A stretch of DNA of 64,000 nucleotides. Origin: Rhynchonema sp. JSB1_4 (lineage: Eukaryota; Nematoda; Chromadorea; Monhysterida; Xyalidae). The stretch lies in the NCBI GenBank assembly GCA_030248065.1, contig JASAMV010004377.1, positions 34,345-98,344 of the forward strand. Direction: 5' to 3'. A model generated the notes under the pieces. The model saw only the letters and a program-made list of their open reading frames with translations, was not told the DNA's origin and searched no databases. Positions 2,825 through 29,929 of this stretch are shown in pieces. Position numbers and translations under genes: made by a program. Every line of letters starts with the position of its first letter. Position 1 is the first letter of the stretch.

Positions 2825-3504
2825 CAGGGTTGGGCAAAAAACATGTAAAAAAATTTTTTTAAACAGGTTTTTGAAAAAAAAATTACAAAAATTTTTTTTA
2901 AAATTTTTCGGGAAACAATATGTCCTAAAACGTCCAAAAATGGCCTTTTTGGGGGGGTTATTTTTTGTCATTTTTTCTCAAGGGTATAGTAAATTTCTAA
3001 TTTCATTGCCTCATGCATTTTTACAGACGCAGGGAAATTCCCGTTCGAAGTCGTGGCAGGCAACATACTCAACACGCAGTCAACAAGCCACGCAGCTGGC
3101 TCATGTGCGTTTCGAATGTTTCAGTCACACAAAGCTGTGCGTGTCAGCTGCGTGGATTGTTGACTGTGTGTTGAGCTTGTAGCCTGCTTCGACTTCGAAC
3201 GGGAGTTTCCCTGCGTCTGTAAAAATGCATGAGGCAAAGAAATTAGAAACTTACTATAGCAAAATTTTCTTCACAAAATCACCTTTGGGGCATGTATTTG
3301 GTACCTAAGATGCCACAAATGATGTTATTACGCAAACCAAGTCACAAAAGTGACTTGCCGATTAAAGTTGCATTTTTTCGCGTTTTTGCGGTTTTTTTGG
3401 GCAAATTTGATCAATTTTCCCCGAATCTGGGCGACTTTTCAAAAAAAAAATTTTATTAAAACAATTTTTTTAAAAAACGTGTCTAAAATTTTTTTCCAAC
3501 CCTG
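2825..3504. mobile_element. hAT-like MITE nested in the 2410-3613 element
   Basis: Ends are CAGGGTTGGGCAAAAAA at the left and a degraded complement (CCAACCCTG) at the right. The flanking 8-bp direct repeat CATACTGT is perfect (2817-2824 and 3505-3512). An 8-bp duplication plus a CAGGG terminus is the hAT signature. Same family as 6445-6917. It contains the palindromic element at 2985-3258. Confidence 0.75.
2985..3258. mobile_element. 274-bp palindromic MITE, innermost of the nest
   Basis: Almost the whole length is an inverted repeat: TATAGTAAATTTCTAATTTC at the left and its near-complement at the right, followed inward by GCCTCATGCATTTTTACAG and CCCGTTCGAAGTCG arms. A second copy, strongly similar along its length, occupies 53693-53964. 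A partial arm is also visible at about 7165-7215. Confidence 0.8.
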
Positions 3505-6444: not shown

Positions 6445-6917
6445 CAGGGTTGGGCAAAAAACTTTTTTTTCAAAAAATCGTTTTTTTAAAACGCCCAGAT
6501 GACCAAAATATGCCCCCAAAAAAATGGAAAACGCTCATGTTGGGAAGAAAACGTGGTTAAATGAAGTAATTCTATGTGTTCTGAGGCAAAATAAACGGGG
6601 TTCAACCCTTTTCTAGCGAGTTGTTAAGATCCCATATCAGACCCGCATTATGGGACCAACTTTGGCCGGGGTCATCACTGAAAGTCAAACTCCGTATATC
6701 GACGTATCTTGACAAAATAAAAATTGGTCGAAAATTTTTTGAAAAAAATGGAACAAAAAATTGATTTTCCTTGATAATCAGGGTACTTTCCCTGAACAAT
6801 CAGGGAAAATCAAGGAAATTCAGGGTTTAAAAAAAACGAAAAGCGACCCAGGCGTTTTTTTTGAAAAAAAACGTCGTTTCTTAAGAAAAACGCCGTCGTT
6901 TTTTTTGCCCAACCCTG
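6445..6917. mobile_element. Intact hAT-like MITE
   Basis: Perfect terminal inverted repeats CAGGGTTGGGCAAAAA and TTTTTGCCCAACCCTG, flanked by a perfect 8-bp duplication GCTAAAAC (6437-6444 and 6918-6925). Length 473 bp, no coding capacity. The reference copy for the family seen at 760 and 2825. Confidence 0.85.
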
Positions 6918-15455: not shown

Positions 15456-15479
15456 CAGGGATCGGAAACGGGCCGGTTA

Positions 15480-15901
15480 CCGTATTGTCGGAAATAGAAC
15501 CCGGGGGGTCTATTTTTTCACTGGGGTCATTTTGGGGGGTTCAATTTATGGGGGGGGGTCAATTATTGGGGGGTTATATTTTTCATTTGGCCCCCCGATG
15601 AAAAAACCATTGTTAATAATGCCCATAAAAATGGCTTGTTTTCGGTATTTTCTAACTTCAACAGCGGCAATTATGCTTAAAAAGCTGTATTCTGTTGTGT
15701 ACGCAAGCTTAAACAACGTTTGACACAACAACACAGCCCTACCATACCACTAATCTGTGGTACGGTGAAGGTTGGGGTGGGGTTCTATTAATGGGGGGGT
15801 CAATTAATGGGGGGGTTCTACTTTTGATTTCGAGCCAGTTAGGGGGGTTCAATTAATGGGGGGGGGTCAATTAATGGGGGGTTCTATTTCCGACAATACG
15901 G
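15480..15901. mobile_element. N-family element, GGGGTCAATTAATG type, TA duplication
   Basis: Inverted ends CCGTATTGTCGGAAATAGAA and complement, flanked by TA on both sides (15478-15479, 15902-15903). Subterminal word GGGGGGTCAATTAATGGGGG occurs several times. Inserted 24 bp inside the left end of L1. Confidence 0.75.
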
Positions 15902-15964
15902 TAAGTCGGCCCGGCCCGGTCGGCGAAAAGTCCGGCCCGGCCCGGCCTGGTGGAGGGCTGCAGG

Positions 15965-16966
15965 TACGGGTGGGCACAATACCCAATACCAATACCACCC
16001 AATACCAATACCAATACCGTGTTTGGTATTGGTATTGGGTCTAATTCTGGTATTGGGTATTGGTATTGAAGCTGGCCTGGTATTGGTATTGGGTATTGCT
16101 ATTGGGTTTGCCGAGGTATTGGGTAAAAACCAATACCCAATCCTAATCCAGAAAAACCCAATACCACACCAATACCAAACCCAATACCTGACTCAAAACC
16201 CAATACCAAACCAATACCAAACCCAATACCAACTCAATACCAGACCAAAAACCCAATACCAAACCAATACTAAGACCAATACCCAATACCCAATACCAAT
16301 ACCAACCCAATACCCAATACTCAATACCAATACCAACCCAATACCAAACCCAATACCAGGCACTGCAGTAGTATTGATTTGGTATTGGGTATTGGTATTG
16401 GTATTGGGTCTCGCCCGGTATTGGTGTTGGGTATTGGTATTGGGTCCCCAATTTGGTATTGGTATTGGGTATTGGGTATTGGTACAGGGCCGGTATTGGT
16501 ATTGGGTATTGGTATTGGGTGTCAAAAGTGGTATTGTGCCCAGGCCCAATGGTGTGGCTGGGGGGGGGGGGGGGGGGGGGTCCCCCCCCAAGGTACAGTA
16601 GGTAGGTTGCCGCCCCTCGCCTGGTACAGTAGGTAGGTTGCCGCCCCTCCCCTGGTACAGTAGGTAGGTTGCCGCCCCACCTAACTTTTCACCCAAAACA
16701 TCCATTTTTGGCTTAAAATTGCATAAAATTAGCATATTTGTCTGCAAATAGGCGAAAAATCGCGCGCTGCGCGCGAAATTAGTGTTTTAGGCCACATTTT
16801 CTTCAGTATTTAGACATAAAAAATTTCGGTTTCCAGATGACCCCCCCCCAAGTGGTACGACCCCCCCCTAGCTCGGCTGGTACAGTAGGTAGGTTGCCGC
16901 CCCGCATTTTGGGTGGTACAGTAGGTTGCCGCCCCGCCTGGGTAGCTACACCACTGCCCAGGCCTA
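15965..16966. mobile_element. GGTATTGG-word element (M)
   Basis: Ends TACGGGTGGGCACAATACC and the complement of TAGGCCTGGGCACAATACC, flanked by a perfect 8-bp duplication GCTGCAGG (15957-15964, 16967-16974). Filled with CCAATACC / GGTATTGGTATTGGG words in both orientations. The C1 element is inserted close to its right end. The TAGG..GTGGGC end and 8-bp duplication fit hAT. Confidence 0.85.
16547..16956. mobile_element. GTACAGTAGGTAGG-word element (C1)
   Basis: Ends CAATGGTGTGGCTGGGG and the complement of CAGTGGTGTAGCTACC, with a perfect duplication CCCAGGCC (16539-16546, 16957-16964). The word GGTACAGTAGGTAGGTTGCC, usually followed by GCCCC, is repeated five times near the two ends. The core has the hairpin CGCGCGCTGCGCGCG. 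Confidence 0.88.
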
Positions 16967-17128
16967 GCTGCAGGTCGGCCCGGCCCGGCACGTTTTGGCT
17001 TGAGGTCGGCCCGGCCCGGCCCGGTCAGCCAATTTTCAAGGGCCGAAAACTGAAAAAGTCCAAAAAGCTGAAAAAATTCGGAAATTTTCTGCAGAATAGG
17101 TACTTGTTTTCACTGGTGCAGCTGGGGG

Positions 17129-17997
17129 CAGTGTAGTGGCTGGGGGGGGATGGGGTGTGATTCCCCCCCCTAAGGAGTAGGTACCTTGCAACCACCCCTT
17201 GGGGGGGGATGGGGGGGAGGAAGGGTAGGTACCTTGCAACCACGCCGGAGGGTACCTTGCAACCATAAACTTATGGTTTTTATAGGCAAAAATGGGTGTT
17301 TTTCGACCTCAAAACCCCAAAAATCGCGCGCTCCGCGCGCAAACCTCCATATAATAGCTATTTTGGGCAAATTTTCGGCCAAAATGCAAAAAAGTACCAT
17401 TTTTTCGGCCAATTTTGCAGAAAAAAGCATGCAAAAAACACCCTTTTTTCGGACCCCAGGGGTACCTTGCAACCTTCTGGAGGCTGGGTAGGGGGGTACC
17501 TTGCAACTATCTGGATCCATCCCCCCCAAGGGTACCTTGCAACCAGTGTAGTTCCTGGTCCGACGCGGCGGTTAGTGTACCTACCCCTTTTTTCCGTGCG
17601 GCGGTTAGTGTACCTCCCTGGGGGGGGGAAGGGGGGGGGGAAGACCCAAATCCAGGAAAAAGTCACTTTTTGAGGTAGAAAATTTGACCGATTTTTGCCC
17701 CTTTTTGGAAAAAATTCTCCATAAAAAGGGTATTTTGGCGACTTTTGACATCATTGACCTAAAAATCACCCATTTTAGGCCTAAAAATGGCCATTTTAGG
17801 CCTAAAAATGGCCATTTTAGGCCTAAAAATGCCGATTTTAGGCAAAAATTGAGGCGGTTAGTGTACCTGGCGCGGCGGTTAGTGTACTAGTGTACCTTGG
17901 TCGCGGCGGTTAGTGTACCTTAGGGGGGGGGGACCCCCCCCCTCCCCCCCCCCCCAGGAACTACACTGCTTGCAACCATCTGCCTGCCACTACACTG
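17129..17997. mobile_element. GGTTGCAAGGTACC-word element (A1), split by B1
   Basis: Ends CAGTGTAGTGGCTGGGG and CTGCCACTACACTG, with a perfect duplication GCTGGGGG (17121-17128, 17998-18005). GGTACCTTGCAACC is repeated about six times near the ends. The central core contains AAATCGCGCGCTCCGCGCGC. B1 sits 29 bp from its right end. Confidence 0.9.
17544..17968. mobile_element. GCGGTTAGTGTACC-word element (B1)
   Basis: Ends CAGTGTAGTTCCTGG and CCAGGAACTACACTG, with a perfect duplication CTTGCAAC (17536-17543, 17969-17976) made from the host's own word. GCGGCGGTTAGTGTACC occurs five times. The core has repeated TTAGGCCTAAAAATGGCC. Confidence 0.9.
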
Positions 17998-18639
17998 GCT
18001 GGGGGGACGGGGTAAGTAGCAGTAGGTAGGTAAGTGATGCGCCATCCTGATGCAGCACGTAAGTCGCCTCCCCGGCTGGTACAGTAGCAGCAGCAGAGCA
18101 GGTATAATTTTTGGCTCAAAATTTTTTAAAATCGGTATTTTTCACTCCATATAGGGGAAAATACGCGCGAAATTAGCGCCTTAGAATACATTAACATCAA
18201 TATGTCGACATAAAAATTTTGTTCCCGGATGACCCCCCTAGCTCGGCTGGTCGGTCGGTACAGTACCTAGGTAGGTTGATTGCAGGCAGGCTTTTTTGGT
18301 GGTACAGGTTGATTGCAAAGGCCTGGGTATTGGCAGCTACACCACCGATTCTTTCTTCAAAACAATGACTGAAAAGATCAAGAACAAGGAAATGTTATTG
18401 CGCGAAGCGCAAAAATTTTGAAAATTTTGCTTCAAAAAATGGTAATTTCGCTCGAATTTAGGCATACCGGGCCGGGCTGCTCGGCCCGGTCCCCCCAAAT
18501 CTCCGGCCCGGCCCGGCCCGGCCCGGTCGACCAAGTCCAAAATCGCGGCCCGGCCTGGCCCGTGTACCGGGCCGGGCCGGCCCGTTTCCGATCTCTACTG
18601 CAAATGCGTGCGCGTGGGTGTGTTGTGTCTGCGTGGGTT

Positions 18640-18770
18640 TTCAAAACCGGTGTGGTGGCAGGCCAGTCGACCCAAGATACCCTAGGGGGGGGGGAAGGTT
18701 TCGGAGTTGCTCGAGATACCCCCAGTCTGGGGGTCCTCTGGGGGCCCCAGAGGATGGTGAAATTTGGGTG
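18640..18770. mobile_element. Truncated D-family copy
   Basis: Shares GTGTGGTGGCAGGCCA, CGACCCAAGATACCCTAGG and CTCGAGATACCCCC with D1 at 18855, then loses similarity. One end only. Confidence 0.6.
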
Positions 18771-18854
18771 AAAAGCGCTTTATTAATTGGAAGTGGATAA
18801 ATTACCAAGGTTCTCAACCTGGTCACATCCAGGGTAGAGGGTAGTACTTGGGGG

Positions 18855-19292
18855 CAGTGTGGTGGCAGGCCAATCGACCCAAGATACCCTAGGGGGGGGG
18901 GAAGGTTTCGGACTTACTCGAGATACCCCCCAGAGGCTACCCAAGATACCCCTATGGTCCGTCAAAAGGCGAAAAAAGGCCGTTTTTTGCATGCAATTTT
19001 ACTGCAAAATTGGCCTAAAAATGGGTATTTTTTGACATTTTTGCCGAAAATTGGCCTAAAATGACCATTTTTGGGTGTCTGCGCGCGGAGCGCGCGATTT
19101 TTGGGGGTCCCGAGGTCGAAAAACACCTATTTTTGCCTTTGAAAACCATAAATCTACTTACTCGAGATACCATTTGGGGTCGGCTCGAGATAGATACCCT
19201 TCCCCCCCCCCATCCCCCCCCTAAGGGTTGACTCGAGATAGATACCCCTTAGGGGGGGGAATCCCCCCCAAGCCCCCCCAGCCACTACAGTG
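18855..19292. mobile_element. CTCGAGATACC-word element (D1)
   Basis: Ends CAGTGTGGTGGCAGGC and CCAGCCACTACAGTG, with a perfect duplication CTTGGGGG (18847-18854, 19293-19300). ACTCGAGATACC and ACCCAAGATACC words lie at both ends. The core hairpin is GCGCGCGGAGCGCGCG. Confidence 0.9.
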
Positions 19293-19340
19293 CTTGGGGG
19301 GGTGGGGGGGTCCCCCCAAATTCATCTATCTATCGTCAAC

Positions 19341-19726
19341 CAGTGATGTGGTTGGGGGGGGGTATGGGGGGTGTTACCCCCCCCCCAACTGCTAGGTAGC
19401 TTTCTTGCTCCGAAACCCATACCCCCCAAACAGGCTAGCTAGCTTTCTTGCTCCGGTCATCAAGTAAGAAAAGTGTTGATTTTAGTGCCAAAATGACCAT
19501 TTTATGGGACAAAATGGTAAAATTCGTTCAAATTTTCTCACGCGTGCACAAAAATACGCATTTTAAGGCTTATTTTAGCATAATTTAGACCAAATTTTAT
19601 ACTCCTGTTTTTGACTTCTGGACCAATACCCCCCCCCAAATCGGGGTACCCGGTTAGCTAGCTAGCTTTCTTGTGCCGGACCCCTCCAGCTAGCTAGCTT
19701 TCTTGCTCGGACCAACTACATCACTG
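19341..19726. mobile_element. TAGCTAGCTTTCTTGC-word element (F1)
   Basis: Ends CAGTGATGTGGTTGGGG and CCAACTACATCACTG, with a perfect duplication TCGTCAAC (19333-19340, 19727-19734), again inside the host's word. GCTAGCTTTCTTGCTCCGG is repeated four to five times. A decayed relative is at about 30835-31120. Confidence 0.9.
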
Positions 19727-20339
19727 TCGTCAACACTTTTTGATTTCATCTATCTATCGTCAACACATATGGGCAAATCTATCTATCGTCAACAAATTTT
19801 GGGAACAATCTATCTATCGTCAACACATTTCGAACCCAAAATTGACATTTTTGCCTCAAAATGGCCCAAAATCGGTATTTTTCACCACAAATAGGCAAAA
19901 ATCGCGCGCTACGCGCGGATTTAGTACATCTATACACATTTTCATTAATATTTACACGTTATTACCTACTTAATGCACTATACTATACCTTGATTTTTGG
20001 CGACCCCCCCCCCCCACCATCTATCTATCGTCAACAAGTTTGGGTCGACCCCCCCCCCAGATTTCGGACTTGGGTCATCTATCTATCGTCAACACATTTC
20101 GGGTCCCAATCTATCTATCGTCAACACCTTGACCAAGTACTACACACTGGTCACATCATGCAAGTAGCGATAATAGCCACCTGACTCGAAATTCAACTGG
20201 CGATTTGGAAATCTCAAGTGGTGAAACCGCCACCTCAGGTGGCCATTAAAAACCATGATGCATAAATATTGAAACTTTTCATTTGGGAACAAAAAATTCA
20301 AGAAAAATTAGCAATTTTGGTATAAACATTGGGTGAAAA

Positions 20340-20456
20340 AGTTACATACCGACACTACCGACACCTCAGAAAAAACGACACTTTTGGCCGCCGACACCGA
20401 CATTAGTAGTGTCGCTACCGACACCGACCTTTTTCCGACATCGACGCCGATCCCTA
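20340..20456. mobile_element. Remnant with CCGACAC words (O)
   Basis: ACCGACACTACCGACACC and variants recur, ending GCCGATCCCTA. Resembles one end of an element of the same general type. No partner end or duplication was identified. Confidence 0.4.
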
Positions 20457-20480
20457 CAAACCCCCCCCCCCACCTCCAAC

Positions 20481-20873
20481 CAGTGTAGTGGCAGGCAGAT
20501 GGTTGCAAGGTACCCTTGGGGGGGATGGATCCAGATGGTTGCAAGGTACCCCCCTACCCAGCCTCCAGAAGGTTGCAAGGTACCCCTGGGGTCCGAAAAA
20601 AGGGTGTTTTTTGCATGCTTTTTTCTGCAAAATTGGCCGAAAAAATGGTACTTTTTTGCATTTTGGCCGAAAATTTGCCCAAAATAGATATTATATGGTG
20701 GTTTGAGGTCGAAAAACACCCATTTTCCCCTATAAAAACCATAAATTGATGGTTGCAAGGTACCCTCCGGGGTGGTTGCAAGGTACCTACCCTTCCCCCC
20801 CCATCCCCCCCAAGGGGTGGTTGCAAGGTACCTACTCCTTAGGGGGGGAATCCCCCCCCCAGCCACTACACTG
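20481..20873. mobile_element. Intact A-family element (A2)
   Basis: Ends CAGTGTAGTGGCAGGCAG and CCCCAGCCACTACACTG, with a perfect duplication CCTCCAAC (20473-20480, 20874-20881). GGTTGCAAGGTACC occurs six times. Opposite orientation to A1 and nearly the same core, but the CGCGCG hairpin segment is deleted. Confidence 0.92.
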
Positions 20874-20983
20874 CCTCCAACACTCCAACACTGCCCCCGC
20901 CCCCCCCCCAAGACCCGGTTAGCATACCCAAAGCTACCGATGAAAATTAACCCGTCCGCACCTCCGAGGGAGGGGGCCACACA

Positions 20984-21396
20984 CAGTGGTGTCGTTGAGA
21001 AATCGAAAGTTTCCCATACCCAATTTTCGGGAAATTTCCCATACATACCCCCAAAAATCAAAAATTTCCCATACCAGGGGGGGTTTTTCCAAAAACTCAA
21101 AAATTTCCCATACCCGAGGGTGGGGGTTTTGAAAAAAAGACCCCAAAAATCTTCTAAAAGTGCCAAAATTGGTCTAAAAAGTGCTTAAAACAGAGTTTTC
21201 TTGCGGTAGTAAGCGATTTTTGACATTTTTGGACGAAAAATGGCCAATTTTGGTACTTCTCGGGGTCAAAAAGTCATTTCTTAGGGGTGCTTGTTCCAAA
21301 AGTGAAAAATTTCCCATACCCCATACCCCCGGCCGATTTCCCATACCCCATACCAGGGGGGGTAACCCCCCCCAACCCCCCCCAACGACACCACTG
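20984..21396. mobile_element. TTTCCCATACCC-word element (G1)
   Basis: Perfect 14-bp ends CAGTGGTGTCGTTG and complement, with a perfect duplication GCCACACA (20976-20983, 21397-21404). AATTTCCCATACCCC is repeated seven or more times. No CGCGCG hairpin in this core. Confidence 0.9.
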
Positions 21397-21416
21397 GCCA
21401 CACACACATATATAGA

Positions 21417-21584
21417 CAAACTACACCAACACGAGCTGGCAGAATAGTGAAACATTCATACGTGGCTGCAGATTTGGGAAATGTTACACGTTGAAGAATA
21501 GAAAACGGAGCATGATGATTTTCTCTTTCTATTCGTTTTGAACACACACCACCTTCGAAATCGAGCTCATGTTGGTGTAGTTTG
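21417..21584. mobile_element. P-family short element, copy 1
   Basis: Inverted ends CAAACTACACCAACA and complement. A second copy in the opposite orientation lies at 42097-42282 (CAAACCACACCAACA ends), sharing GTTTCACTATT, CCCAAATC, AACGTG and CTTTCTATTCGTTTTGAA segments. Confidence 0.65.
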
Positions 21585-21617
21585 CCTATACGTCTTCCTG
21601 TTTTAGTAGTATAGATT

Positions 21618-21721
21618 GGGGAAATTAGTGTAACCGGAGGGGAAATTAGTGTACTAGTGTACCTTGGTCGGGGACATTAGTGTATCTTAGGGGGGTCCCC
21701 CTCCCCCCAGGAACTACACTG
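21618..21721. mobile_element. Truncated B-family copy (B2)
   Basis: GGGGAAATTAGTGTA words followed by the intact end CCCCAGGAACTACACTG. The left half is missing. The word matches the remnant at 40675. Confidence 0.7.
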
Positions 21722-21730
21722 CTCCCCAGA

Positions 21731-22598
21731 CAGTGTAGTGGCAGGCAGATGGTTGCAAGGTACCCTTGGGGGGGATGGATCCAGATGGTTGCAAGGTACC
21801 CCCTACCCAGCCTCCGGAAGGTTGCAAAGTACCGCTGGGGTCCGAAAAAGGGTATTTTTTGCATGCCTTATACTGCAAAATTGGCCAAAAAATTGGTACT
21901 TTTTTTTTGCATGTTGGCCGAAAATTTGCCTAAAATAGCTATTATGTAGGTTTGCACGCGAAGTGCGCGATTTTTGGGGTTTTGAGGTTGAAAAATACCC
22001 ATTTTTGCCTATGAAAACCACGAATTGATGGTTGCAAGGTACCCTCCGGGATGGTTGCAACGTACCTACCCTCCCCCCATCCCCCCTCCAAGGGGTGGTT
22101 GCAAGGTACCTACCCCTTAGTGGGGTTAGAGAGATGTCGGGTGTCGGGTGCCAAAAAAAGTGTAGGTGTCGGGTACCCCCAGATGTCGGGTGTCGGGTCC
22201 GAAAAAAACCGCCGACCCCCGACACTTGCGGTTCAAAACATCAGTATTGCTGAGAGAAGAATTTTGAGAGAAAATTTTCTTCGAACCAAATGTTTCCGAA
22301 GACGCAGAATGTGACATTTTGGTGTTTATTTCGTGTGAAAATACTTGAATTCAGTAACTTGAGCCAAAAAATTGCACTCATGATGCAAATGAGCAAAAAT
22401 TTGCCTGTTTTTGTTCCAAAAACAGGTGTCGGGTTTTTTTTCAAAAACTAGATGTCGGGTGCCGGGTTATTTTGCAACTGTCGGGTGTCGGGTGTCGGCT
22501 TTTTTTCTGAGATGTCGGGTGTCGGGTACCCCCCACGACCTCTAACCTTACCCCTTAGGGGGGGAATCCCCCATCCCCCCACCCCAGCCACTACACTG
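21731..22598. mobile_element. A-family element (A3), split by H1
   Basis: Ends CAGTGTAGTGGCAGGCAG and CCAGCCACTACACTG. The flanks TCCCCAGA and GCTCCAGA match at 6 of 8 positions. GGTTGCAAGGTACC words are present. The core hairpin is decayed to GCACGCGAAGTGCGCG. H1 lies 48 bp from its right end. Confidence 0.85.
22121..22550. mobile_element. GATGTCGGGTGTCGGG-word element (H1)
   Basis: Ends TGGGGTTAGAGAGATGTC and the complement of TAAGGTTAGAGGTCGTG, with a perfect duplication CCCCTTAG (22113-22120, 22551-22558). The word GATGTCGGGTGTCGGGT occurs in about ten copies. Its core is unlike that of the A/B/C group. A relative is in ARFRP1 at 59909. Confidence 0.85.
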
Positions 22599-22766: not shown

Positions 22767-24154
22767 ATGGAGCACGATAAAGCAGAAAACACTGCGGCCG
22801 CCGTCACGAATGATAAAATACAAGCCGACGACCTGAATCAAGGCGTGGTCGTTGGTGACATTTCGGACTTTCCTGGCATCGCCGATGTGAAATACGAATA
22901 CCTGGATCATACGGCCGACGTGCAGCTGCATTCATGGGGCGATGATGTGAAGGAAGCCTTTGAACAAACGGCAATGGCAATGTTCGGTTATGTGACAGGT
23001 ACGGCCAGCGTCAGCGATGCAGATCAGTGTTTTGTTTTCAATAAATGGCCATTGCCAAAAATCGCCGCCGTCACCCGACTTTGACCCAAATTTCTGGTGG
23101 CGATCATCGTCAAATTAAAATGTCAACTTGGCTGTAAAAATTGCAGTTTTGGGGTTCCAAAGTCGTGCTTTTGGTCGGAAGCGCCCTATTTCGGATGGAG
23201 CTTAGAAACGGAAAAATTACAGACGTTGACGTTACATATTTTGGTCCGAGGCGCAATGTTTGGTTGTTCGGAGCTCTCAGCACTAACACACGTGCCGCAT
23301 GCACCCAGTGTAGTTCCGGGGGGAGGGGGTCCCCCTCGGCAGTGTAGTTCCTGGGGGGGAGGCCCCCCGTCGGGTACACTATCCCCCTATCTCCCCCTCC
23401 TCCGGGTACACTATCTCCCCCAATTTTTGCCTAAAATGCCCATTTTTGGGCCTAAAATGGGCATTTCTTGGCCTAAAATGTGCAATTCAATGTTCTCAAA
23501 AGTCGCCAAAATGCCCTTTTTATGAAGAATTTTTTCCAAAAAAGGGCAAAAATAGGTAAAAATTTTCGACCCCAAAAAGTGACTTTTTCCTGAATTTGGG
23601 TCTTCCCCCTGGGTATCTATCTCCCTCCGAAAAAAAACGGGGGTCCGCTATCCCCCCTCCGGACCAGGAACTACACTGCCCCTCGGGTACGGTATCTCCC
23701 CCTCAGGTGGTACACTACTCCCATCTTCCCCTCCGGGAACAATATCTCCTCCAGCTCCATGTTGTCAAAAATTGCCAGAATATCCTCTTATTGGGATTTT
23801 TTCCAAAAAGGGGCAAAATTTTCTGCAGACATCGACACGGTGACGGTCGAGTACACGTTCGACATCGAGGCATCGGGTCACGACATGCACACACTTTTGT
23901 TCGCATTCCTCGACGAATGGCTGTTCAACTTCTGCGCCGAGCCGTACTTCATACCGAGAGCGGTGCGAATTGAGAGTTTCGATCGCCAAAATTGGCGAAT
24001 CAAAGCGAGAGGCTGGGGCGAGTCGTTCGAAGCGCGAACCAAACATCCGCAGGGCACCGAAGTCAAGGCGATCACCTATTCGAACATGCAGGTGCACGAA
24101 CGCGATGATGATGATGGACACAAAGCTGAGATATTTGTCATCATCGATATTTGA
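22767..24154 (+). CDS. ZBTB8OS: Archease, RTCB tRNA-ligase cofactor
   Basis: Two exons, 22767-22998 and 23829-24154, make 185 residues. Archease promotes guanylylation and turnover of the RTCB RNA ligase that joins tRNA exons, and in metazoans XBP1 mRNA halves. Exon 1 carries a variable acidic N-terminus and the family signature [17 protein letters not shown] followed by [15 protein letters not shown]. Exon 2 carries [25 protein letters not shown] and the C-terminal VFVIIDI-like end (IFVIIDI), including the conserved Asp. This is the usual archease length plus a short N-terminal extension. The single 830-bp intron holds two nested transposons, and exon 2 begins 15-20 bp after the inner remnant. 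DDX18 follows 404 bp downstream on the same strand. Confidence 0.95.
23306..23814. mobile_element. I-family remnant (I2) in the archease intron
   Basis: Begins CAGTGTAGTTCCGGGGGG, is interrupted 34 bp later by I1, and resumes with TACGGTATCTCCCCC words. Its core CCAAAAAGGGGCAAAA then stops directly before the TTTTCTGCAG acceptor of archease exon 2. The right end is missing. Confidence 0.7.
23340..23678. mobile_element. GGAGATAGTGTACC-word element (I1)
   Basis: Ends CAGTGTAGTTCCTGG and CCAGGAACTACACTG, with a perfect duplication CCCCTCGG (23332-23339, 23679-23686). The word is read on this strand as GGGTACACTATCTCCCCC. The core is homologous to B1 in reverse orientation (CAAAAAGTGACTTTTTCCTG). 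Confidence 0.9.
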
Positions 24155-27500: not shown

Positions 27501-29929
27501 GACAAGCGATTTCTGTTGCTGTTCACATTTCTGAAAAAGAATCGCACCAAGAAAGTGATGGTATTCATGTCGTCGTGTGCCGCTGTGAAATACTATCATG
27601 AATTGTTGAACTACATCGATCTGCCGGTCACCTGCATTCATGTGAGCGCACTGATTTGCTCTGATTCATACTTTCATGTTTAGTTTGCTGTTTTCTCTTT
27701 TTCTTGACTTCCCCCGGTTTTTAGGGCAAACAGAAACAGCAGAAACGGACGACCACATTCTTCACATTCTCACAAGCGACCACCGGCATCCTATTATGTA
27801 CGGATGTGGCGGCGAGGGGATTGGACATTCCCGCGGTGGATTGGATTGTGCAGTATGACCCACCAGATGATCCGAAGGTGACATTTTTCTGGCACAAGTT
27901 GATTGTTGTGCATTTTCTTTGCTGCGAATCGTAGCCGCGAAACCACCATGAGCGCATGCGCCACTGAATAATGTCCAAAATAACAGCACATTATTCAAGC
28001 AGATGGTGTCAGTCGGACCAAGTGGCCTGCGTGTTTAGCTTTAAAATGTTCAACACACCGTTCTAGTTTTGCAAGTTTTCTGTTTCGGGCTGTCAGTTTT
28101 GTGTCAAAGATGTTGCATGTCTGAGGAACAGTCAGAAAAGTCAAGTCAAGTCAAAATCCCGGCCCGATTGACACTACCGCCTTCAAGATGCAGCCAGAAA
28201 CCGAAATGTAATCGATGGTTTGCGTGTCCAGGAGTACATCCATCGAGTCGGTCGAACGGCACGGGGTGAGGGCGGCATTGGCAACGCGTTGATCATGTTG
28301 AGGCCGGAGGAGCTCGGCTTCCTGCGATATCTGAAGCACGCGCGCGTCCCGTTGAACGAGTACGAGTTCTCGTGGAACAAAATCGCCAACATACAGCCGC
28401 AGGTTGGATGGATGCGAGAGTGTCTGGTGCGCAGTTGCATTTTGACGATGTTTACAACTGTGAAAATTAGAAACGGAATCTTTCAAATGTGTAACCGCAC
28501 TTTGACGTTGAACGATTTATGGATGGATGTAGTTCCGCCGGACGGAGAAGAAGAAAGAACATTCTTCCAAACAGTGCTGTGGCTACTTTTGCGGGGCGGG
28601 TAGGGTACATACGTGAAAAATTCGGGGCGGGTAGGGGGTAGCGTACCTGGAATCTTGGGGGGGGAATCCGGTTTGGGGAGGAGGGGGGGAAGATTTTTCG
28701 GGGCGGGTAGGGTACAATACAAGTTTTTTGGGTGCCTATTTTTATATGCTATAAAGTGCATATATCGCGCGTAGCGCGCGATTTTTTGCACTTTTAAAGG
28801 TTTTCGGTCGAAATTTGTATACTTGCGTATTTTTCCGCAAAATATATTTTTGGAAAAAAAACCGTTTTTTTTCCGGAAAAAAAACCGTTTTTTTTCCAAA
28901 TATTTTTCCAGTACTTAAGGATACCCATGGTTCAAAAATGCCTATTTTGGAGAAAATTTTGTCGGGAAATGGCCTGAAACATGCTAAAAATGCACTTAGA
29001 GATTAAAAAGTGCTCATTTTGAACTGTTTAGTACCGATTTACATTAGTTTCGACAACATCCTTTCGTAACCCTTGAAAATATTTCGGAAATTTTTGGAAA
29101 AAAAACCGTTTTTTTTTCCAAAAGTTGCCACTTGGAAAAATTTCCGGAAAAATAAAAACGTATTTTTCCGGGCCTCGGAAAAAAAACGGTTTTTTTTCGG
29201 TTTTTTTTCCGGAAAAAAAACGGTTTTTTTTCCGGCCCGCAAGTATAGAAATTTGGGCATTTTTGACCGAAAAATGGGCATTTTGAGGGCAAAAATCGGG
29301 GCGGGTAGGGTACCAGAGCGGTACGGGTAGGGGGTAGGGTACCGGAGCGGGGCGGGTAGGGGGTAGTGTACCAGGCCGGGGCGGGTAGGGTACCATTGCG
29401 GGGACCCCCTCCCCCCAGCCACAGCACTGCTTCCAAAAATATCAACAAAAAACCTTAATGAAATATGATCCATGATGGTTTGAGTCAGAATTTCACCCCC
29501 TCAGCCATCCTTCTGTTTCAGTTGGAGAAGTTGATATCGCAGAACTACTACCTGAACAAGTCAGCCAAGGAGGCGTACAAGGGCTACGTACGGTCTTACG
29601 ACTCGCACAGTCTCAAGGACATCTTTGACGTCAACACGTTGGAATTGGTCAGTGTCGCAAAATCGTTCGGATTCGAAACACCGCCGTTTGTCGACTTGCG
29701 TACGTTTTTTTCTTTATTTGTTGTCGTGAAACTTGTTTTAAATGTGCCAATTTGACGTTTATCGTTAATTACTTTAGCTGTGAGCGGCAGATCGAAAGTC
29801 GCACCGCAGCAGCGCAGTGGACGCAAGACGGTATCCTTTGGGTACAGTCGGCCAAAAACAGAGTTTAAACAAAAAGTCTACAAGCAACATCAGGGAAAGA
29901 AACACGACAAACGACAGTTTACGCGTTGA
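24559..29929 (+). CDS. DDX18: DEAD-box RNA helicase DDX18 / Has1
   Basis: Eleven exons (24559-24700, 24838-25036, 25105-25205, 25281-25480, 27084-27198, 27264-27403, 27480-27641, 27725-27877, 28232-28402, 29522-29699, 29778-29929) give 570 residues. Nucleolar ATPase needed for 60S ribosomal-subunit assembly. After a basic N-terminus come all helicase motifs: Q-motif ([12 protein letters not shown]), I (ARTGSGKT), Ia (PTRELSLQ), GG, Ib (TPGR), II (DEAD), III (SAT), [23 protein letters not shown] ([12 protein letters not shown]) and VI (HRVGRTARG). The Has1-type tail [13 protein letters not shown] and [11 protein letters not shown] follows, then a basic end. The SxYLR/AYDSHSLK block separates DDX18 from other DEAD-box proteins. 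Intron 4 (1.6 kb) contains an opposite-strand gene; intron 9 contains transposon J1. Confidence 0.97.
25769..26968 (-). CDS. Small single-pass membrane protein nested in a DDX18 intron
   Basis: Opposite-strand gene inside DDX18 intron 4. Exon 1 is 26968-26878 (starts [11 protein letters not shown]), exon 2 is 26664-26507 and exon 3 starts at 26428. Exons 1-2 join in phase to give one continuous hydrophobic helix across [20 protein letters not shown]. An amphipathic region follows with [15 protein letters not shown]. Exon 3 is polar and disordered, then [12 protein letters not shown]. Acceptors CACAG and CCAG both lie just after a GATGTTTC-type motif. The C-terminal exons (open at 26044-25769, including [15 protein letters not shown]) are uncertain: the donor after exon 3 and the acceptor near 26060 are not resolved. 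The family was not recognised. A type I or signal-anchored membrane protein is the best guess. Confidence 0.5.
28572..29429. mobile_element. GGGCGGGTAGGGTACC-word element (J1) in DDX18 intron 9
   Basis: Ends CAGTGCTGTGGCTAC and CCAGCCACAGCACTG, with a perfect duplication CTTCCAAA (28564-28571, 29430-29437). GGGGCGGGTAGGG(TACC) words lie at both ends. The core has the hairpin ATCGCGCGTAGCGCGCGAT and several AAAAAAACCGTTTTTTT palindromes, making it about twice the usual size. Confidence 0.88.

Follow-up and report, generated by a model that had tools for sequence, protein, structure and literature searches.

Concerted change of repeated subterminal words on shared frames of hAT-type mini-elements in a nematode genome

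Introduction

What does it mean when one short stretch of a genome holds many small transposons that resemble each other at their ends and differ in the motifs repeated just inside them? The question is raised by the window analysed here, a 64-kb stretch on one contig (JASAMV010004377.1, positions 34,345 to 98,344) of the 204-Mb assembly of the nematode Rhynchonema sp. JSB1_4, which comprises 5,747 contigs. Short DNA transposons are densely nested in the window, many of them with CAGTGNWGTNG-type ends and a repeated subterminal 'word'. An initial annotation of this DNA proposed that the words are unrelated, that each is the private recognition code of a different transposase, and that families diversify by swapping them. 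We found that single frames (designated by letters, with their word types numbered) carry several words, and that on frame B whole sets of words have changed together, which probably reflects retuning to changed transposases.

Subterminal repeats of hAT elements are well described as transposase sites (PMC10368747, PMC4890040, PMC3143072, PMC3260210; here and below, papers are cited for the parts of their text that were available). In Hermes, the left-end repeats STR2-STR7 are given as antisense and the right-end repeats STR1-STR5 as sense, with STR1 exceptional (PMC10368747).

Results

Words of one type are near-constant while the backbone drifts, and between the types of frame B the whole set has changed together, mostly beyond the sequence GGTAC or GGTAT. 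The alignment of frame B, which excludes four nested copies of at least 460 bp, holds 20 intact copies; these fall into four word types, B1 (2 copies), B2 (9), B3 (6) and B4 (3), and every copy has the same type at all its sites; among the B3 copies, the one at window position 23340 has damaged sites and another is without one site. Because contig C9 appears to hold an inverted duplication (loci L003/L004 and L044/L045), three of the 20 copies (L004:1554, L004:2427 and L045:1501) are second views of the same insertions, leaving 17 independent ones. Among these, divergence in the word columns is 0.046 within types and 0.360 between types, against 0.101 and 0.162 in the other columns (for all 20 copies, 0.041 and 0.359 against 0.093 and 0.161). 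Among 5,000 random placements of blocks of equal size, 9 reached the difference observed and 13 the ratio, and the 14 of 386 circular shifts that reached the difference were all of 1-8 columns, still overlapping the words. Two B2 lineages differ by 0.214 in the backbone and by 0.040 in the words, whereas B1 and B4 differ by 0.100 and 0.248, respectively. In the backbone tree, B2 is separated by a branch with support 99, and both B1 copies cluster. Frames A and F show two clean word types each. The claim of one frame carrying several words is borne out.

Mixed copies were also sought in the whole assembly. The first places by contig number were listed and their word types called by eye, with patterns that span both plain-end words and require TACC, so that copies with quite different words would escape. 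The frame B pattern gave 1,364+1,407 matches (control 0+0). The 100 that were listed, which include four duplicate pairs from C9, comprise 30 B1 (in one of which the second word has decayed), 25 B2, 32 B3, 12 B4 and one divergent B1-like copy; plain-end words of mixed type occur in 0/100 of these listed matches, whereas independent words would agree in only about 27%. For frame A (772+1,294 matches, in which a place on the reverse strand may be listed twice; control 0+0), the 100 rows listed hold 72 distinct places, 51 A1 and 21 A2, and none of the 69 with both words readable is mixed. For frame F (693+956 matches, control 0+0), 44 F1 and 41 F2 make up the 85 distinct places among the matches listed, and mixed words were found in none of them. 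The correlation of words with element clusters, on which the initial annotation had staked its proposal, thus holds in all three sets of listed places.

The elements share a polar layout. In frames A, B, C, D, F, H and K, one end has a G-run and then a C-run, which could form a hairpin, and the other end is plain. The core is AT-richer (central GC 0.30-0.44 in 12 representatives), and the words occupy the space between it and either end. In 25 of the 28 CAGTG/CAATG elements listed (28 of 42, at most eight per end type), the commonest 9-mer has no copy on the opposite strand; of the other three, one is a nested copy, one, in C, has a self-complementary stretch, and one is a B copy with 5 versus 1. 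A reverse copy of the element's own word was found in none of eight representatives tested. With the words on one strand, the G-hairpin end and the plain end therefore differ. Read from the G-hairpin end, most words start with GGTAC or GGTAT, followed by a variable half; this first half is not clearly visible in C and E.

Frame A: A1 GGTACCTTGCAACC; A2 GGTATCTCGAGT
Frame B: B1 GGTACACTAACCGCCGC; B4 GGTACACTAATTTCCCC; B3 GGTACACTATCTCCCCC; B2 GGTACGTCTGTTCCCCC
Other frames: D1 GGTACAGTAGGTAGGTTGCCGCCCC; K GGTACAGTAGGTATCCCCCC; H GGTACCCTACCCGCCCC; F1 GGTATGGGAAA; F2 GGTATCC

Contrary to what had been supposed, most words are not unrelated: they share the GGTAC/GGTAT half, and B1 to B4 are graded. 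Since most words are related in this way, concerted retuning fits better than diversification by word swapping. Separately, a GC palindrome (e.g. CGCGCGCNGCGCGCG) is present in the middle of the AT-rich core of A2, D1, D2, E and K.

Scans with controls confirmed that these are nested hAT-like MITEs (miniature inverted-repeat transposable elements) that have ends of the CAGTG type, exact duplications of 8 bp and words repeated near both ends. Ends of the CAGTGTAGTTCC / CAGTGTAGTTCCNGGNNCG type number 4,685 in the assembly, against 0 for the reversed control, and CAGTGNWGTNGNNGGGGG ends 4,429 against 60; a slightly stricter end-and-duplication scan of a wider sequence sample gave 111 matches (overlapping loci counted) against 2-11 in six shifted registers. 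A chance origin of the ends and duplications is ruled out by these shifted-register and reversed-pattern controls. The genome holds thousands of hAT-type mini-elements on a few common frames. The CAGTGNWGTNG elements have the short CAGTG-type terminal inverted repeats and 8-bp target duplication of hAT transposons, and they are MITE-like in being short (about 340-450 bp when un-nested), non-coding, bounded by inverted ends, and represented by thousands of ends. The duplications of hAT elements favour nTnnnnAn; among 39 independent CAGTG/CAATG duplications, 19 have T at position 2 and 20 have A at position 7, and hAT-remnant elements of the same genome show the same bias more strongly (T2 in 23/31, A7 in 22/31). 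These data support the assignment of the CAGTGNWGTNG elements to nonautonomous hAT-superfamily MITEs, the hAT type being backed by resemblance (duplications, the T2/A7 bias and neighbouring hAT remnants).

Insertions frequently hit words. In 10 of the 39 independent CAGTG/CAATG insertions, the 8-bp duplication falls in another family's word, while words account for 4.6% of all 8-mers and for 13.8% of those within elements (binomial 7e-6 and 0.035, respectively). A T2/A7 site, CTTGCAAC, lies in the A word, and three insertions are found there. The insertions in words are:

window 17544 and 19341; L001:1627; L002:2580; L003:195 and L003:1061; L054:1115; L068:1158; L076:148 and L076:4421

Candidate sources of transposase were searched for with PF05699, the hAT dimerisation domain; 150 of 330 candidates were scored and 42 loci examined. 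These comprise 29 CAGTGTTCGAAC elements with a duplication, 7 TAGGGATCGGCG elements, 5 loci with one or two CAGTGTTCGAAC ends and no matching duplication, and one unassigned locus. The CAGTGTTCGAAC and TAGGGATCGGCG elements are 0.8-1.9 kb long, except for one 2.4-kb composite, and hold remnants, not whole transposases: a BED finger and dimerisation domain in L015, a BED finger in L081 and a dimerisation domain in L012. They look like internal-deletion derivatives that retain one or both of these domains. The two families have different words (GATCCCGATCCC and GGTGTCGG, respectively), which are wholly or almost wholly one-stranded. Their dimerisation domains are identical at 30 of 60 positions, whereas their BED regions gave no significant match (14/58 identical, E 0.49). 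A rule of one word for one DNA-binding domain is plausible, because the two families combine different words and half-identical dimerisation domains with BED fingers that cannot be aligned. The private code postulated by the initial annotation thus stands in part: words track clusters, and the two remnant families differ in both words and BED fingers, while no transposase was found, among the loci examined, whose own ends carry a CAGTGNWGTNG word, and the word-specific transposases of these frames are putative. Searches with PF14372, PF10683 and PF14291 gave no matches, and their controls gave none either; a protein search with one BED region found no relatives. A search with archease found relatives in animals of several phyla, with identities of about 59-70%. 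BED matches at C3010 (L082) were set aside, as they lie inside no element of the end-and-duplication scan. A product with BED and dimerisation parts, such as the elements at L009-L038 and L069-L081 might encode, could repress transposition.

In the window itself, a scan for inverted ends (at most 3 of 12 positions mismatched) accompanied by an 8-bp duplication (at most 1 mismatch) gave 11 elements, with a perfect duplication in 11/11; registers shifted by 3, 5, 7 and 11 gave 0, 0, 1 and 0. Elements G, M, E and the TGTCGGGTG-word element at 22121-22550 were added by direct reading. Strand is given in brackets, with a dot where none is assigned.

15456..18597 (.): L, an old hAT-like element with ends CAGGGATCGGAAACGGGC / TAGAGATCGGAAACGGGC and CGGCCCGG words, containing M, D1, A and B; flanks CTGCGAGT / CTGCAAAT match at 6/8
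15965..16966 (.): M, a GGTATTGG-word element split by D1; duplication GCTGCAGG, perfect
16547..16956 (-): D1 copy, ends CAATGGTGTGGC / CAGTGGTGTAGC, word GGTACAGTAGGTAGGTTGCCGCCCC; duplication CCCAGGCC
17129..17997 (-): A1 copy containing B1, word GGTTGCAAGGTACC; duplication GCTGGGGG
17544..17968 (+): B1 copy with word GCGGCGGTTAGTGTACC, lying within a word of the preceding A1 copy; duplication CTTGCAAC
18830..20149 (-): E, with ATCTATCTATCGTCAACA words, containing G and C; duplication GTCACATC
18855..19292 (+): G, which is A2 (frame A with a different word, CTCGAGATACC), aligning with A1 over its full length; duplication CTTGGGGG
19341..19726 (-): C copy in a word of E, word GCTAGCTAGCTTTCTTGCTC; duplication TCGTCAAC
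20481..20873 (+): A1 copy, GGTTGCAAGGTACC six times on one strand; duplication CCTCCAAC
20984..21396 (+): F1 copy, word TTTCCCATACC; duplication GCCACACA
21731..22598 (+): A1 copy containing the TGTCGGGTG-word element; flanks TCCCCAGA / GCTCCAGA match at 6/8
22121..22550 (+): TGTCGGGTG-word element with TAGGGTTAGAG-type ends; duplication CCCCTTAG, read from the flanks; complete relatives at L059, L061 and L070
23340..23678 (-): B3 copy, its words damaged; duplication CCCCTCGG
28572..29429 (+): H copy (CAGTGCTGTGGC), word GGGGCGGGTAGGGTACC; duplication CTTCCAAA
55886..56754 (.): CAGAGGTCGCAA element with CGGCCCGG words; duplication AAGGGGGG

A separate family with CAGGGTTGG ends, perfect 8-bp duplications and no evident repeated word is found at 2825-3504 and 6445-6917 of the window, and also at L073:1485-2173. 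Another inverted-repeat element, at 15480-15901, has CCGTATTGTCGGAAATAGAACCC ends and its own repeated GGGGGGTCAATTAATGG motif.

Discussion

In our view, these elements are probably hAT MITEs whose words are predicted transposase-binding repeats, retuned in concert with change in the DNA-binding domain, with the word types as separate mobilisation groups. The 12-bp CAGTG ends would be the transposase cut sites, and transposases acting in trans would recognise the subterminal words through their BED-type DNA-binding domain. By analogy with the asymmetric repeats of Hermes, the one-strand polarity may allow the transpososome to tell left from right. Each retuning would most likely follow a change in a transposase DNA-binding domain, after which word types would be mobilised separately. 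More tentatively, and with some doubt, we suggest a transposon speciation by recognition code, in which the word sets of several frames were repeatedly retuned in concert to new transposase specificity, the anchor half GGTAC/GGTAT and the polarity were kept, and sister MITE families became separate mobilisation groups.

Several observations weigh against retuning to transposases. None of the 42 PF05699 loci (from the 150 of 330 candidates scored) has a transposase inside a CAGTGNWGTNG element with its own duplication, neighbours and nested inserts aside, and the putative link between BED finger and word rests on two families, which illustrate rather than test it. In the backbone tree, B3 has support of 27 and B4 forms no clade, the two being poorly separated, so that a single origin is not demonstrated for either. 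On frame D, word divergence is not raised over the backbone (D1-D2, 0.153 in words and 0.249 in the backbone; D1-K, 0.299 and 0.410). Finally, the sites within one copy are not independent observations or events.

Among the alternatives, molecular drive is the most serious, and we regard it as unlikely. Slippage and gene conversion would homogenise same-strand words in master copies, with few founders per family and recognition unchanged, and indeed the words are same-strand repeats, each word type is homogeneous, and compound sites in B resemble partial duplications. This process explains uniformity inside copies, but not the between-type excess in words (0.36 versus 0.16 in the backbone), and it should not keep words at 4% while the B2 backbone diverged by 21%; the objection is limited in that the excess is less certain if a word set counts as one event, and is absent from frame D. 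Less probable still is binding of the words by a protein other than a transposase, either an element-encoded anti-silencing factor like VANC or a host repressor, with an arms race driving the change. The pattern is formally the same as that of the VANDAL motifs, which are one-oriented, dense and repeated, in units that diverge together between related elements (PMC5735166), but the present elements are short and the words lie within hAT-type ends, where hAT transposases bind repeats (PMC10368747, PMC3143072, PMC4890040), and pure escape from a repressor would not account for the strong constancy of words within types. Literal cassette swapping, by which recombination or template switching would exchange entire word blocks between families, would account for the observation that one frame carries several words at all its sites, but we reject it as very improbable, because the inter-word spacers are homologous and stay aligned across the word regions and the word types are graded, B4 and B3 being intermediate between B1 and B2; nor were mixed copies seen in the intact B alignment or among the frame B places listed.

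How transposases and their binding sites co-evolve is usually deduced element by element. Here, because thousands of copies on few frames carry alternative, internally consistent word sets in one genome, the rate, order and limits of code change become directly readable. If confirmed, retuning to transposases would account for the coexistence of many MITE families that do not all rely on one enzyme.

The literature searched, which covered few subscription papers, yielded no description of a single hAT MITE frame with several word sets. The initial annotation's statement that nothing of the kind had been described was nevertheless too strong, since BED-finger binding of hAT subterminal repeats, diverse specificities of hAT-derived DNA-binding domains and the joint divergence of one-oriented motifs among related elements (VANDAL/VANC) have been published. 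Hermes, Tgf2/Tol2, Herves and Ac/Ds have the same short inverted ends, 8-bp duplications and transposase-bound repeated subterminal motifs, and in Hermes the orientation of the repeats is likewise asymmetric between the two ends (PMC10368747). In those systems each element is described with its own motif, whereas here several related frames of one genome have alternative sets of words, and sister types share one backbone. The hAT-derived CGG-binding proteins and hAT-19 domains combine BED and Hermes-type DNA-binding domains of diverse specificities, and the motifs of four tested hAT proteins match the subterminal regions of their own elements (PMC8097297); that survey was made from the protein side, whereas the present data record, from the side of the sites, how words on one MITE frame changed in concert. 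In Arabidopsis, related VANDAL elements contain motifs that are repeated in one orientation, the units of which have diverged jointly, and an element-encoded protein that binds them has diverged correspondingly (PMC5735166, PMC10398659). Those motifs lie in non-coding regions of long plant elements that are Mutator-like and have VANC genes, whereas the present words are subterminal in animal hAT MITEs of 400 bp. The kind of phenomenon thus has close precedents in Hermes, the CGG-binding proteins and VANDAL/VANC, and word switching is unusually clear in the elements described here.

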